A program made the position numbers and the translations under genes. Of a stretch of 64,000 bases of DNA, positions 14,268-20,434 are shown one piece after another. This DNA is from Rhodothermales bacterium (lineage in GTDB: Bacteria > Bacteroidota > Rhodothermia > Rhodothermales > UBA10348), in contig JANJTM010000025.1 of assembly GCA_024711125.1 (NCBI GenBank), positions 248,001 to 312,000 of the forward strand, read 5' to 3'. Under the pieces are notes generated by a model. The model was not told the origin of the DNA and ran no database searches. It saw only the letters and a list, made by a program, of their open reading frames with translations. Within the stretch, counting starts at the first letter, position 1. Every line of letters begins with the position of its first letter.

Positions 14268-17117
14268 TCAGCCCATGGCTGCGGCGATCACGGCCGCGGT
14301 CTCGGACAACGCCTGTCCGAGCTTTGCCGGTTCCTTGCCCCCCGCGGTCGCCAGGGTCGGCCTCCCGCCGCCGCCTCCGCCCACGATCTTCGCGAGCGTT
14401 CCGATGATCCGGCCCGCCTGGACACCCTTTGCCACCAGGTCGTCCGCGACCGAAACCACGAGGTAGGCCTTGGTGCCGTCCGGATCGACGGATCCGAGCA
14501 CGCCGACCGAGCCGGCTCCAAGCCGCTCGCGCAGCTGCTCGCCGAGCACCCGGAGCCCGTTCATGTCGACGCCGTCGAGGCGTCCCGTGACGAGGCGTGC
14601 GCCCGCGACCTCGACAGCCGAGCCGATGAACGCCTCCAGTCGCGAGGCGAGGGCACCGATCCGCACGTCCTCGAGCTCCTTCTGCAGTCGGCGGTTCTGC
14701 TCGATGAGGTCGGCGACCTCCTCGTCCGACGGCCGCTGCAACGAGCGGAACTGGCCCCGCACGCGGTGCAGCTCGTCCAGCTCGCCGTGCAGGTGTCGCA
14801 CCGCATCCTCGCCCGCCACGGCCGTCACGCGACGAACTCCCGCGGCAACCGACCCTTCCGATACGAATCGGAACACCCCGATCTCTCCCGTGGCCTCCAC
14901 GTGGATGCCTCCGCACAGCTCCACCGAGTACTCCGGATCGAAGGTGATCATGCGCACCCGCTCCTGGTACTTCTCGCCGAAAAGCGCCGTGGCGCCCCGA
15001 TCCAGGGCCTCCTGCAACGGCACGTCCCGGTCTTCCCGGCGCTCGATGTTGCGCTGGATCGTCCGGTTGACCATCTCCTCCACCGCACGCAGTTCGTCCG
15101 GAGTGACGCGCTCGAAGTGGCTGAAGTCGAACCGCAGGTGATCCGGGGCGACCAGCGAACCCTTCTGCGCAACGTGCTTCCCGAGAATCCGGCGAAGGGC
15201 CGAATGCATCAGGTGCGTGACCGTGTGGTGCTTCCGGATCCGTGCCAGCCGGGCGGTATCCACTTCGGCGACGACCGGGGCGTCCGGGTTCGACGGAAGC
15301 CTGTCGACCACGTGTACCAGGCGTCCCTGGCGCTTCTGCACGTCCAGCACGGTCAGGGTCTCGTCGCCGACGGTCAGGGTTCCGGTGTCCCCGACCTGTC
15401 CGCCCGACTCCGCGTAGAACGGCGTCTCATCCAGGATCACCTCGTGGCGAGTCTCGCCGTTACCGCCCGTCGTGCGCATCGCCCGGATCGACGCACCGTC
15501 GACGCGGCTGCGGTCGTAACCGACGAATACGGAATCCTCGCCGGCCGAGACCACCGACCATTCGTCGGTGGAAGACTGGTCGATCCGGAAGTTCGCCGCG
15601 GCGCGGGCCCGATCCTTCTGCCCCTTCATCAGCGCATCGTATCGCGCCATGTCCACGCCGAAACCGACCTCACGGGCCATGAGCTGCGTCAGATCCACGG
15701 GAAACCCGTAGGTGTCGTGCAGCAGGAACGCGACCTCGCCCGGCAGATCCCTGCGGCCCGCCGTGTCGAGGAAGCGCTTCATGATGGCAGGGCGATCCGT
15801 CGTGTCGGCATACGCCTTGTCGAGCAGGTCCAGCGTCGAACGATCGCCGGCGAGACGGGCCGACACCGATTCCGTCGATTCGCCGCCCGCGAGCGCCGCC
15901 ACGTACGGCACCACGCGGTCGAAGAACTGGATTCCCGTTCCGAGCGTCTCGAGGAAACTCTCCTCTTCGGCCCGGATCACGCGCTCGATGTAGGCGCGGT
16001 TGCGCACCAGTTCGGGGAACTGCGCGCCCATGAGCGAGATGACGGTTTCGGAAAGCCGATACAGGAACGGCTCGTGAAGCCCGAGGGTCTGATACCCGAA
16101 CCGCACGGCGCGCCGGAGGATGCGACGGATCACGTACCCGCGCCCCGCATTGCCCGGCATGACCCCGTCGGCCACCGCGAACGAAATCGTGCGCACGTGG
16201 TCGGCGATGACGCGCATGGCGACGCGAACCCGATCGCGCTCGACCTCCGAGGCGATGTCCAGATCGTCGTAGGCGCGGATGTCGGCGCGCGGCGACAGCG
16301 CCGCCGCCCCGTCGAGGATCGGGCGGAACAGGTCGGTGTCGTAGTTCGACTTCTTGCCCTGCAGTACCGCGACCATGCGCTCGAAGCCCATGCCCGTATC
16401 GACGTGCTTGGCCTTCAGCGGCTGCAGCGTCCCGTCACCGAGGGCGTTGTACTGGATGAAAACCAGGTTCCAGATTTCCATCACCCGCGGGTCGTCGCTG
16501 TTTACCAGCGTCTTGCCGTCCACCCGGGCGCGTTCCTCGTCGGAACGCAGGTCCACGTGGATCTCGGAGCACGGTCCGCACGGCCCCGTGTCCCCCATCA
16601 TCCAGAAATTGTCCTTGGAGCGGCAGTAGAGGATGTGGTCCTGGGCGATGGTCGTCTCGCTCTTCCAGAAGCCGGCCGCCTCATGGTCGGCGTCGAGGCC
16701 CAGCCGCGCGTCTCCCTCGTGCACGGTGGCGTACAGCCGCCCGCCGTCGAGTCCCCACCGTTCGGTGAGCAGCTCCCACGCCCAGCGGATCGCTTCCTTC
16801 TTGAAATAGTCCCCGAAGCTCCAGTTGCCGAGCATCTCGAAGAGCGTGTGGTGGTAGGTGTCGAAACCCACCTCCTCGAGATCGTTGTGCTTGCCGGAAA
16901 CGCGGAGGCACTTCTGCGTGTCGGCCGCACGCAGGTAAGGCCGCGTGCCTTCCCCGAGGAACACGTCCTTGAACTGGTTCATCCCCGCGTTCGTGAACAG
17001 CAGCGTGGGATCGTTGTGCGGGACCAGCGAATCGCTCGGAACGATTTCGTGTCCCTTTTCCCGGAAGAAGGAGAGGAAATCCTCGCGGACCTGTTCGGCG
17101 GTCAGATGGGCTTTCAT
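14268..17117 (-). CDS. alaS: Alanyl-tRNA synthetase
   Basis: 949 residues, somewhat longer than the usual 870-880. It opens MKAHLTAEQVREDFLSFFRE and has the class II catalytic core (LFTNAGMNQFKDVFLG, TQKCLRVSGKHND, FEMLGNWSFGDYFK, GPCGPCSEIHVD). The editing domain follows with HHTVTHLMHSALR and the zinc-binding ELCGGIHV, then a C-terminal oligomerisation domain ending in a Gly-rich GGGGGGRPTLA segment. The extra length includes an insertion at about residues 440-490 (AGGESTESVSARLAGDR). It charges tRNA-Ala. The leader carries a hairpin followed by a T-run (see 17133). Confidence 0.97.
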   Translation of the reverse strand: MKAHLTAEQVREDFLSFFREKGHEIVPSDSLVPHNDPTLLFTNAGMNQFKDVFLGEGTRPYLRAADTQKCLRVSGKHNDLEEVGFDTYHHTLFEMLGNWSFGDYFKKEAIRWAWELLTERWGLDGGRLYATVHEGDARLGLDADHEAAGFWKSETTIAQDHILYCRSKDNFWMMGDTGPCGPCSEIHVDLRSDEERARVDGKTLVNSDDPRVMEIWNLVFIQYNALGDGTLQPLKAKHVDTGMGFERMVAVLQGKKSNYDTDLFRPILDGAAALSPRADIRAYDDLDIASEVERDRVRVAMRVIADHVRTISFAVADGVMPGNAGRGYVIRRILRRAVRFGYQTLGLHEPFLYRLSETVISLMGAQFPELVRNRAYIERVIRAEEESFLETLGTGIQFFDRVVPYVAALAGGESTESVSARLAGDRSTLDLLDKAYADTTDRPAIMKRFLDTAGRRDLPGEVAFLLHDTYGFPVDLTQLMAREVGFGVDMARYDALMKGQKDRARAAANFRIDQSSTDEWSVVSAGEDSVFVGYDRSRVDGASIRAMRTTGGNGETRHEVILDETPFYAESGGQVGDTGTLTVGDETLTVLDVQKRQGRLVHVVDRLPSNPDAPVVAEVDTARLARIRKHHTVTHLMHSALRRILGKHVAQKGSLVAPDHLRFDFSHFERVTPDELRAVEEMVNRTIQRNIERREDRDVPLQEALDRGATALFGEKYQERVRMITFDPEYSVELCGGIHVEATGEIGVFRFVSEGSVAAGVRRVTAVAGEDAVRHLHGELDELHRVRGQFRSLQRPSDEEVADLIEQNRRLQKELEDVRIGALASRLEAFIGSAVEVAGARLVTGRLDGVDMNGLRVLGEQLRERLGAGSVGVLGSVDPDGTKAYLVVSVADDLVAKGVQAGRIIGTLAKIVGGGGGGRPTLATAGGKEPAKLGQALSETAAVIAAAMG

Positions 17118-17132
17118 GCTGGGGGCGGAACC

Positions 17133-17160
17133 AAAAAAAGCCCAAACCGGAGCCTGGGCT
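17133..17160 (-). terminator. Hairpin plus U-tract in the alaS leader (possible attenuator)
   Basis: On the minus strand AGCCCA (17160-17155) pairs with TGGGCT (17144-17139), separated by a 10-base loop and followed directly by a run of T ending at 17133. This is a small intrinsic-terminator shape 16-43 bases before the alaS ATG and downstream of the predicted -7 element. No gene lies upstream on this strand for it to terminate, which suggests premature termination of alaS transcription. The stem is only 6 bp, so strength is uncertain. Confidence 0.45.
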
Positions 17161-17178
17161 GTTGATCGGGCAGACTCG

Positions 17179-17186
17179 CGAATATA
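17179..17186 (-). promoter_or_regulatory. Predicted -7 element of alaS
   Basis: The minus strand reads TATATTCG, one step from TAnnTTTG, placing the transcript start about 55 bases before the alaS ATG. A well-spaced TTG element is not visible. Confidence 0.4.
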
Positions 17187-17299
17187 CGAACCGGTCCCCC
17201 CGGGCCCGTTCCGACCGCTTTCAAGATCCGGTAAAGGGGTCGTAACCCGGGGGCTGGCGGTCCGTATCGCGAACGATTCACCCAACCCGCTCCGATTCC

Positions 17300-18298
17300 A
17301 TGCGTACCCGACTCCTCGGCTCGGCCGTCGTTGTTCTCGCGATTCTCGGCGGTCTCAACCTCGTGCATGCCCTCAGGCGCGACCGGGGCCACGATCGTCC
17401 CACGACCGCCGGAACCGTGGTGTTCGCGGGCGACCGGCGGACCGACCGCGTGATGATCGACGAGTCGTTCCAGGTGCGGGAGGGTCAACGCATCCTCGTG
17501 GACGTCCAGCATGCCGACCTGGTGGTCGAGACCGCTCCCGGGCTCCAGGCTCGGATCGTCGTCACGGTGACCTCCGACGACATGCCCCGCGCGGTAGAGC
17601 GTTTCGAGAAGATGCGATTCTCGGCCGGGCTGGACGCATCCGGCCCAACCCTCACGTCGAAACCCGAGGACGGCGGGTTCTTCCGAGGATCCTGGAACAC
17701 CGTACGGATGGACATCCGCGTCCGACTGGTCATCCCGCGGGAATTCGACCTCGACCTGACGTCGTCCCACGGCGACGTGTCGCTCGCCTCCCACCGGGGA
17801 ACCGCCCGGATTTCGACGACCCACGGCGACGTGGACGCGGATGCGCTCGAGGGTGCGTCGATCACGATCGAAACGACGCACGGCGATCTGCACGCGTCGA
17901 TCCTGAACGCGCCGACCGTCACCCTGGGTACCACCCACGGGGATATCGAACTGGGAACGGTAACGGGCGACGTGCTCCTGGCGCGCACCACCCACAGTGA
18001 CGTCTCCATCGAAGGGCTCTCGGCCCGCGCCGACGTGGAAACCACGCACGGGGACGTCGCGATGTCGGTTCTCGCCACGACCGGACTCCGCGTGGAAACG
18101 ACGCACGGAGACGTCTCTATAGAACTGCCGAAACACCTCGCGGTCGATGTCGACCTGGAGGGGGACCCGGTGCTGCTCGACACGGACGGGGCGTTCGACG
18201 GGAATCGCGACGAGGAGCGGATCGTGGGATCGATAAACGGCGGCGGATCCCGCATCGACGTGTCGACGACGTTCGGCTCGGTGCGCGTCAGGGGCTGA
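17300..18298 (+). CDS. DUF4097-type beta-strand repeat protein with a THGD ladder
   Basis: 332 residues with an N-terminal membrane anchor or signal (LLGSAVVVLAILGGLNLV) followed by an extracytoplasmic domain. From residue 155 on, the motif T-T-H-G-D-(V/L/I) recurs seven times, with histidines at 157, 175, 194, 213, 232, 250 and 269, a period of 18-19 residues. That period fits one turn of a right-handed parallel beta-helix per repeat, as predicted for DUF4097 (putative adhesin) proteins. Stacked His and Asp side chains on one face could bind metal; this is inference. It stands alone between alaS (divergent) and yyaL (convergent). Confidence 0.78.
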   Translation: MRTRLLGSAVVVLAILGGLNLVHALRRDRGHDRPTTAGTVVFAGDRRTDRVMIDESFQVREGQRILVDVQHADLVVETAPGLQARIVVTVTSDDMPRAVERFEKMRFSAGLDASGPTLTSKPEDGGFFRGSWNTVRMDIRVRLVIPREFDLDLTSSHGDVSLASHRGTARISTTHGDVDADALEGASITIETTHGDLHASILNAPTVTLGTTHGDIELGTVTGDVLLARTTHSDVSIEGLSARADVETTHGDVAMSVLATTGLRVETTHGDVSIELPKHLAVDVDLEGDPVLLDTDGAFDGNRDEERIVGSINGGGSRIDVSTTFGSVRVRG

Positions 18299-18340: not shown

Positions 18341-20434
18341 TCACGCGGGCGGACCCACGTCGAGCCCGAGCCGACGCTTCAACTCGTCGGCCGTCCGGAC
18401 CGGAAGTCCGCACGCCCGACCCCGGCAGACATACGCCGCCGACTGCCATCCCGGCGGCAACGGCCGGTCGATCCCGAAGTGCGGACCCTCCCGATGTGCC
18501 GTCGGCGCGGCGGGATCCAGCCGCCAGACCATGGCGCCGGGCAGGTAGGATTCGGAGAGTACCGACGCGAGCGCATCGAACCCGGGGTCTCCGGGAACGC
18601 CCACCAGCGCAACCTCGACCGTTGCCGGGGAAGCCTGCATCCATCCGATCAGGAGTCCCGCGTACGAGCCGGGCGAGGCGTTCATGAGCCTCCCGGCGGC
18701 GCTGGCGAGTCGCGAAGCCGACTCGTCCAGGTCGGACCTGCCGGTGAGCCGGGCCAATCGGGCGAGCGTGTCGAGGGCAAGCGCGTTGGACGACGGCATG
18801 GCGCCGTCGTGGAAGTGCTGCTGGCGAACGAGGGCCGCGGGATTCCCGGACTCGGTGTGCCAGAGCCCCCCGGTACCGGAGCCGTACCGTTCTACCATGC
18901 GCTTGCAGAGATCGGTCGACCTGCCGATCCACTCGGAGCGGCCGCTCGCCAGCGCCAACTCGAGGCAGCCCCACGCGAGGAACGCCGTATCGTCGAGGAA
19001 CGCCGGCACGGAGGGCTTGCCCCGGAAGCAGACGTGGTACGGGCCACCCGGAACGTCCCACAGCCTGTCGAATACGAAACGCGCCGCCCGCTCGGCGTCA
19101 GCCACGAGCGCCGGTTCCCGCAACCGGGCTCCGGCGCGTGCCAGGGCGCCGATGGCGAGCCCGTTCCAATCGGCGAGGATCTTCTCGTCGCGCGACGGAC
19201 GCACGCGCCGTGTCCGACTCCCCAGCAGCGTATCGCGGATGCGATCCAGTCGTCTGACGCCCGCCGCATCGAGCGCGCCGCCGCCTCCCGCAACCCGGTC
19301 GCCCGCACGCCGCGGATGCAGCACGTTGAGGCCGTTCGATTCTCCGGTCGCCTCGTCCCGGTAGTTCCCTCCCGGTTCGACACCGAACCAGGACGCTGCA
19401 AACGCGGCGTCTTCCGGGCCGAGTGCGGCTTCGAGCTCCCCTGCGGTCCACAGGTAGAAAAGCCCCTCCCTCCCTTCGGAATCGGCGTCCTCGCCGGCGT
19501 AAAGTCCCCCCTCCGCTGACGTGAGGTCGCGACCGATGTACCGCGCGATACGGAGCGCGGTCTCGCGAAGCGACTCGTCTCGCGAGGCCTCCCAACCCTC
19601 GGTATAGGCCAGGAGGGCCCACGCCTGGTCGTACAGCATCTTCTCGAAGTGCGGAACCCGCCATTCGGCGTCGGTCGCGTAGCGGTGGAATCCGCCCCCG
19701 ACCTGGTCATGTATGGCCGACCCGGCCATGACCCGGAGCGTGTCGATCGCCATGCGCGTCGCCTCGGGGCGCCCGTTCGCAGCACCGTATCGGAGCAGGA
19801 AGACGATCGTGTGGGCCATGGGGAACTTCGGCGCGGCACCGAAACCACCGTGGATCGGGTCGTAACGGGACGCGAGCTGGTCGAACGCCCGGTCCAGGAC
19901 GTCCACGCCCGGATTCTCGGGCGGCGGCACGTGCTCGGTCCGGTGCACGAGTTCGGCCACCTGTTGGGCAGAGATCTCGACCTTCTCCCGCTCGCTCCTC
20001 CAGAGCCGGCCGACCCTGCCGGCGATCTCGACCAGGCCCGGGCGCCCGAAACGGGCGGTCTTCGGCAGGTACGTCGCCGCGTAGAAGGGCAGCCGCCGCG
20101 GGGTGAGCCATAGCGTGAGGGGCCATCCGCAGTGCCTGCCGATCGCCTGGCACACGGCCATGTACTGGTGATCGATGTCGGGGCGTTCCTCCCGGTCGAC
20201 CTTGACGCAGACGAAATCCCGGTTCAGGATCTCGGCCACGTCGGCGTCCTCGAACGACTCCCGTTCCATGACGTGGCACCAATGACACGTCGAGTACCCG
20301 ATGGACAGGAAGACCGGCACGTCCCGACGACGCGCTTCGTCGAACGCTTCCTCGGACCACGGCCACCAGTCCACGGGATTGCCGGCATGCTGCAGGAGAT
20401 AGGGGCTCGACGAGCCGGCGAGGCGATTGGCCAT
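18341..20434 (-). CDS. Thioredoxin-domain protein of the YyaL / DUF255 (SSP411) family
   Basis: 697 residues, the full length of the family. The N-terminus reads [20 protein letters not shown] and is followed by a thioredoxin-like fold with [14 protein letters not shown] (CxxC-type redox pair) and [12 protein letters not shown]. The rest is an (alpha/alpha)6 barrel related to N-acylglucosamine epimerases and glycosidases ([38 protein letters not shown]). The family is found in all domains of life; its biochemical activity is not settled. No signal peptide, so probably cytoplasmic. Confidence 0.92.

Follow-up and report, generated by a model that had tools for sequence, protein, structure and literature searches.

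Why does a terminator-like hairpin followed by a run of U lie between the likely promoter of alaS and its start codon, on a strand where no upstream gene seems to need one? The question arises in the genome of a Rhodothermales bacterium (G000), in a 64,000-nucleotide stretch of DNA that was analysed as a whole (hereafter, the window). To our knowledge, descriptions of how tRNA synthetase genes are controlled are scarce beyond the T-box bacteria and a handful of E. coli cases. The locus comprises the following parts.

17300–18298, plus strand: divergent neighbour, a DUF4097 protein (Pfam)
17179–17188, minus strand: promoter-like box CGTATATTCG, a -7-type element, from sequence and alignment
17161–17176, minus strand: predicted first 16 nt of the transcript, with neither a start codon nor a conserved antiterminator
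17139–17160, minus strand: putative terminator hairpin AGCCCAGGC-UCCG-GUUUGGGCU, 9 pairs
17133–17139, minus strand: U tract of 7 U, the first of which is also the last paired base, from sequence
17118–17132, minus strand: remainder of the leader between the U tract and alaS
14268–17117, minus strand: alaS, alanine--tRNA ligase, 949 aa

The alaS product is AlaRS (TIGR00344, 851 bits), and its nearest named relatives are those of Bacteroidota MAGs, Salinivenus and a Rhodothermaceae bin. On the minus strand the box is followed by 18 nt, the hairpin, T7, 15 nt and the ATG at 17117, with 21 nt from hairpin to ATG. If transcription starts 7 nt from the centre of the box, as the B. thetaiotaomicron rule in PMC7366714 predicts, the alaS leader would be about 59 nt long. 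The letters and positions given by the initial annotation were confirmed (AGCCCA at 17160–17155, N10, TGGGCT at 17144–17139, U7 at 17139–17133, ATG at 17117). The hairpin is present as it described, although the stem is longer than stated, with 9 pairs, two of them G-U, around the four-base loop UCCG (DNA letters from 17160 to 17139: AGCCCAGGC-TCCG-GTTTGGGCT). Its remark that no same-strand upstream gene needs a terminator also holds, as the neighbour is on the plus strand and the next minus-strand gene upstream of alaS ends at 18341. The segment 17118–17132 contains neither a second TAnnTT box nor any of the Shine-Dalgarno-like motifs tried.

Folded alone, the hairpin reaches -12.7 kcal/mol. 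None of 200 shuffles was as stable as the 38-nt hairpin segment (-15.2 kcal/mol, z -3.1); the wider 83-nt leader is ordinary (z -1.2; 28 of 200 shuffles equally stable). A generic consensus scan of 7 kb, weak evidence by itself, returned four terminator-like sites (two being the alaS hairpin) against 2.7 expected and found no sigma-70 -35/-10 promoter. A scan of both strands of 264 kb of G000 (the window plus 200 kb) for hairpins of ≤ -9 kcal/mol with a U tract gave 84 sites, and only two of these, in the alaS and rimP-nusA-infB leaders, have a TA[TC][ACT]TT box starting 18–36 nt upstream. When the leaders of 196 crudely predicted genes in the same 264 kb were surveyed, eight leader hairpins were found at seven genes, three of which (alaS, rimP and greA) recur in the family and four of which have poor U tracts. 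The same survey of 200 kb of G013 gave six leader hairpins, including that of alaS and two before a transporter-like gene.

The organism's family is represented by 27 genomes, and the start of alaS is present in 23 of them (absent: G012, G014, G023 and G026). A strict test required a hairpin of ≤ -10 kcal/mol with 6 or more pairs and a loop of no more than 12, together with 5 or more T in 8, inside 180 nt; 12 of the 23 family leaders passed it, against 35 of 920 shuffled family leaders. In the other families of the order a single leader passed among 32 (G055; 33 were examined and G037 was dropped for N), and 40 of their 1280 shuffles did so. The hairpin-plus-U in the family leaders is not due to chance, and the binomial figure of 8e-12 for the strict test ignores relatedness and is not to be taken at face value. 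The alaS leader hairpin, whose conservation among relatives the initial annotation had proposed to check, is conserved in about half of the family (12/23 strict) and is confined to this one family. A scan of 76 alaS leaders from named records, a few of them from family members, gave 13 hairpins of ≤ -8 kcal/mol (including L065), close to what shuffles give under the same criteria (25/184 for the family, 31/256 for others); the named loci numbered 80, with L062, L080, L084 and L096 left out because they have little or no upstream DNA.

Two further leaders were added by eye, bringing the carriers to 14 of 23: G013, with a long loop side (-21.8 kcal/mol), and G001 (-11.7 kcal/mol). The latter is a doubtful carrier, in which two bases separate the stem from U7 and the hairpin begins 11 nt after the box start, approximately at the expected transcript start. 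The U tract has only 4 U in G002, G003, G013 and G022. A TATATT-like box occurs upstream of alaS in all 23 family leaders, and the distance from box to hairpin, start to start, is 19–29 nt in the 12 strict carriers and 30 nt in G013. In seven alaS promoters (G004, G008, G013, G017, G021, G022 and G025) the motif GGTTTGC stands about 6 nt upstream of this box; common to three genera, it may extend the promoter or act as an operator. The G024 leader (L136) has a second hairpin, AGGTCGGTATCCGACCT and then GACTATTTTTCTTC, downstream of the first, and G004 has a second, divergent AlaRS-like open frame of 601 aa beside its normal alaS (G004:C29:2123-3859, L161; 40–46% identity in the N-terminal part).

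In a 13-row alignment of family leaders (G013, with its long loop, was left out), GTATATT is invariant. Of the stem cells 121/151 (80.1%) are paired and 30 are unpaired, in rows that are related to one another. Changes on both sides occur in 8 of the 12 stem pairs, and the covariation score is matched by 0 of 500 shuffles; sliding the partner by one column lowers the pairing to 58.9% either way. The structure of the alignment was taken from G016, which favours the covariation result, whereas the poor placement of G000 and G007 by MAFFT works against it. No stem sequence in this alignment is conserved between genera. On a midpoint-rooted AlaRS tree of 26 rows the hairpin label needs 5 changes, compared with a mean of 8.8 for shuffled labels (3 of 500 as low), and the presence of the hairpin is clustered but labile. 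The three outside rows all lack it, and the fork joining them to G000/G003 and G018/G009 is unresolved in this tree, which is compatible with a single early gain followed by several losses as well as with gains on repeated occasions. Sister species that differ in having the hairpin (G018/G009, G013 and other g9, G002 and other g3) offer a natural experiment.

The upstream neighbours bear on whether the hairpin serves another gene. Judged from translations, with a Pfam check for the window's neighbour, the upstream gene is divergent in nine of the 14 carriers (G000, G001, G002, G003, G004, G007, G013, G018 and G022), so that in these the hairpin is not that gene's terminator. In the other five (G005, G011, G016, G020 and G024, all from a single genus) the end of a codirectional ORF lies close to the box, and this gene could use the hairpin; a gene-end terminator, or an insulator against transcription arriving from upstream, would look like this. 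We regard this explanation as very improbable, given the divergent neighbour in the window and eight other carriers, and given that a hairpin downstream of the promoter box would stop alaS too. Moreover, G022, of the same genus as those five, has a divergent neighbour and keeps its hairpin. Between hairpin and start codon, no TAnnTT box was found in 11 of the 14 carriers, window included (it is present in G004, G016 and G024), so that in those 11 the transcription of alaS must cross the hairpin.

What, then, might the leader sense? The initial annotation had seen no T-box signature, in agreement with Rfam, which gave no T-box at gathering score over the window and none in L001 at E 0.5. A T-box riboswitch was rejected on this basis and on the inferred leader of about 59 nt with neither specifier nor antiterminator; no Rfam family of any kind was found at the alaS leader. 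The spacer after the box measures 13–23 nt in the 12 strict carriers. ATG, GTG and TTG are absent from the window's spacer and from those of seven of the 12, with scattered TTG or ATG in five, and leader-peptide attenuation was rejected because no conserved ORF precedes the terminator in the strict carriers. The alternative antiterminator that the initial annotation had envisaged did not materialise among partners upstream of the hairpin: in all 12 strict carriers, pairing between spacer and 5' arm did not exceed that of shuffled spacers (31 to 160 of 200 as low), and no conserved upstream antiterminator was seen. The G3:U70 pair is the identity pair of tRNA-Ala. Mimicry through this pair was rejected as well, a 5'G-3'U at the third pair being found in 0/12 strict hairpins and the reverse U-G in one (G003). 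As the leader is too short to accommodate a leader peptide, a T-box or a sizeable aptamer, readthrough, if controlled at all, would be set by the polymerase, its factors or a binder of the hairpin.

A different role, in the mRNA instead of in termination, was also considered. The hairpin and T run could be a 5'-end stabiliser or a translation element, with the U-rich stretch recruiting the ribosome where there is no Shine-Dalgarno. In 13 of the 14 carriers no Shine-Dalgarno-like motif, of those tried, lies downstream of the hairpin, as such an element would lead one to expect. A run of six T is also kept in four of the nine leaders that lack the hairpin (G008, G009, G021 and G025, overlapping the box in G008 and G025), so the T run may serve some other purpose. 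The other five (G006, G010, G015, G017 and G019) have no six-T run, which speaks against this role, as does the way the T run tracks the stem: it directly follows it in 13 of the 14 carriers (two bases later in G001) at any hairpin-to-start-codon distance, from 21 to 106 nt. We give a role in the mRNA only a slight chance. The T runs that persist in four of the leaders lacking the hairpin, and the unusual layout of G001, make it somewhat more credible, and attenuation of alaS less sure, than they would otherwise be. The nine hairpin-free leaders further indicate that the hairpin is dispensable.

Leader terminators at other genes of these genomes place the alaS hairpin in context. Those of G000 are as follows.

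G000:C30, about 179577–179652 (L286): rimP-nusA-infB leader, two tandem terminators
G000:C30:44561–44535, minus strand (L329; family leaders L320–L342): greA leader hairpin
G000:C48:29646–29692 (L302/L360): aspS leader with TCCGTATATTTC, GGGCCCCUGCAGGGGCCU, a U tract and a divergent neighbour

The strict test was applied across the family within 230 nt of the domain matches of rimP, greA and aspS, with no shuffles. Strict leader terminators were found in 22 of 23 rimP leaders (24 places, one without upstream DNA), in 22 of 23 greA leaders and in one of 19 aspS leaders (21 full places; the late-starting matches of G003 and G024 were left out). A shorter aspS hairpin with a U tract was seen by eye in G001, G009 and G018. 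In 30 genomes outside the family 29 rimP leaders were positive within 280 nt, 23 of them with two hairpins; the scan thus works outside the family, where only 1 of 32 alaS leaders passed. The tandem rimP-nusA-infB terminators are found in many members of the order (L266–L289, L368–L397) with the G-rich 5' arm first, and the second, GCGCCCGUCC...GGACCGGGCGUUUUUU, is nearly invariant in the family. The order of the two motifs looks reversed relative to the Gammaproteobacterial version in PMC2965389, and Rfam detected neither of the two rimP leaders tried (L286 and L282). The greA leader hairpin is exemplified by CGCTGCCACC..GGTGGGAGCG followed by U; that of G000 lacks a TATATT box, and its U tract is interrupted.

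A covariance model of the 13 alaS leaders was run on the 27 family genomes, with 150 of 234 to 1049 candidates scored in each, and gave at least 25 places at E ≤ 1. Among the matches listed were 14 alaS leaders (the model's own 13 plus the left-out G013 leader, at a rough E of 0.10), the aspS leader of G000 (rough E 0.026, not in the model) and ten others; none of the nine hairpin-free alaS leaders was among them. In G000, among the 150 of 474 candidates scored, only alaS and aspS reached E ≤ 1. Inspected by eye, five of the ten others are gene ends (after rpoD-like and rpmA-like genes and a tRNA gene), one is the rimP leader of G026, and those of G005 and G014 are unclear. The remaining two have a CGTATATT box, in G011 and, before a gene that looks queA-like by eye, in G003; the latter is a weak match, with the box CGTATATTCG (L365, G003:C210:3657-3726). 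A survey of the synthetase genes of five genomes yielded 88 match rows, of which 72 were used (16 weak, cut or second pieces were dropped) and 71 scanned, one having too little upstream DNA. Of the ten hairpins found, most lie inside coding sequence or lack the box, and a clear combination of box, hairpin and U tract was seen at aspS of G000 alone. The thrS match of G016 was rejected as a leader terminator, as it sits in a tandem repeat; near-copies of AGGGCCTTATATATTA are arrayed there upstream of thrS (L215) as repeated promoter-like boxes.

Premature termination, as first proposed for alaS, is a well supported reading of these sequences: a terminator-like hairpin lies between box and alaS in about half of the family, and in nine of the 14 carriers it is not required by any gene upstream, although the upstream antiterminator part of the proposal was not supported. 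What the sequences show is the hairpin, its conservation and its position, whereas the start site, termination and the effect on alaS are inferred. RNA polymerase would start near the CGTATATTCG box and transcribe some 16 nt before the hairpin and its seven U, where a fraction of complexes would release an RNA of about 38–44 nt and only readthrough complexes would go on to transcribe alaS. Readthrough would depend on the polymerase, on its accessory factors or on something that binds the bare hairpin. We lean, by a little more than an even chance, towards a promoter-proximal intrinsic terminator acting as a sensorless attenuator of alaS, a terminator of fixed efficiency included.

In that fixed form, a partly efficient and unregulated terminator would cut alaS output by a constant factor. 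The lack of a sensor element or conserved upstream antiterminator is consistent with this, as is the presence and absence of the hairpin among close relatives. A weaker promoter would suffice for the same purpose, however, and the hairpin is kept despite a change of upstream gene; rimP and greA, too, have leader terminators of this sort. Counted within the attenuator, the fixed form seems to us rather unlikely.

Were readthrough of the attenuator adjusted, general elongation factors (NusA, NusG, GreA) or the state of the polymerase would be most likely to set it, given the leader terminators that these genomes also have at rimP-nusA-infB and greA. Tuning by general elongation factors is a possibility that we hold tentatively. 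As to what tunes the alaS terminator, if anything, these factors are our first guess and AlaRS the bolder one. AlaRS, or uncharged tRNA-Ala, might bind the nascent hairpin or leader and favour or prevent termination, so that the enzyme would set its own level. AlaRS is an RNA-binding protein, predicted attenuators were reported by Naville and Gautheret, and the other match to the leader model in G000 (150 of 474 candidates scored) is a synthetase gene, aspS. Against such feedback, the stem sequence varies between genera, no strict hairpin of the 12 has a G3:U70 counterpart, and the design is common to aspS, rimP and greA, which argues for a cause that is not specific to alanine; we think it unlikely.

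A broader proposal is that in this family a few genes of gene expression (alaS, rimP-nusA-infB, greA and, in some members, aspS) are gated by bare promoter-proximal terminators, tying synthetase supply directly to the elongation-factor state of the polymerase (or to the binding of a nascent hairpin by the synthetase it encodes), while the RNA itself would sense neither amino acid nor tRNA. We offer it as speculative and doubtful. A terminator this compact would show whether the transcription machinery alone can throttle a synthetase gene.

Our literature search found no report of such an alaS leader, and a search on AlaRS autoregulation did not return 'alanyl-tRNA synthetase' among the matches listed. 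The main text of PMC2965389, figures and tables aside, mentions neither 'alaS' nor 'Bacteroid'. The initial annotation's view that this mode is not known from Bacteroidota-type bacteria nevertheless needs narrowing, since the order has strict rimP leader terminators (29 positive among 30 genomes of other families) and the family has them at greA, and both are attenuator kinds known elsewhere according to the main text of PMC2965389. That text, a survey of premature terminators across bacteria, ranks rimP first and greA/rnk seventh, and infers a protein regulator from the conserved rimP stem. Like the rimP leader as described there, the alaS leader would be a bare terminator with no larger conserved sensor; unlike it, the alaS stem is not conserved in sequence and occurs in a single family.

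In E. coli, alaS is under autogenous repression by AlaRS, which acts on promoter DNA. The present locus resembles that system in a possible self-control of the same gene and differs in that a terminator, not promoter DNA, would be the site of action. The alaS T-box leader of Firmicutes (PMC4695836) likewise has premature termination before alaS, which is putative here; the present leader, with a predicted length of only about 59 nt, has no Rfam T-box and neither specifier nor antiterminator. The closest layout is that of E. coli greA/GraL, with a promoter, short spacer, intrinsic terminator hairpin, U-rich tail and gene (PMC6829880). There the spacer runs from +1 to +18 and the hairpin from +19 to +48, and with the predicted start the alaS hairpin would span about +17 to +38, an almost identical layout. 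The alaS leader has the geometry of this type (a spacer of < 20 nt, a hairpin, a U tract and an RNA of about 40–60 nt); the gene here is alaS, and the likeness drawn is one of layout. According to PMC6829880, the sequence of the greA hairpin matters for GreA feedback, that feedback and a role in trans were shown for GraL only, and, as a section heading states, Nus factors have no effect on E. coli greA regulation. The best reading of these comparisons is that the alaS leader is probably a family-specific new case of a known kind of leader terminator.
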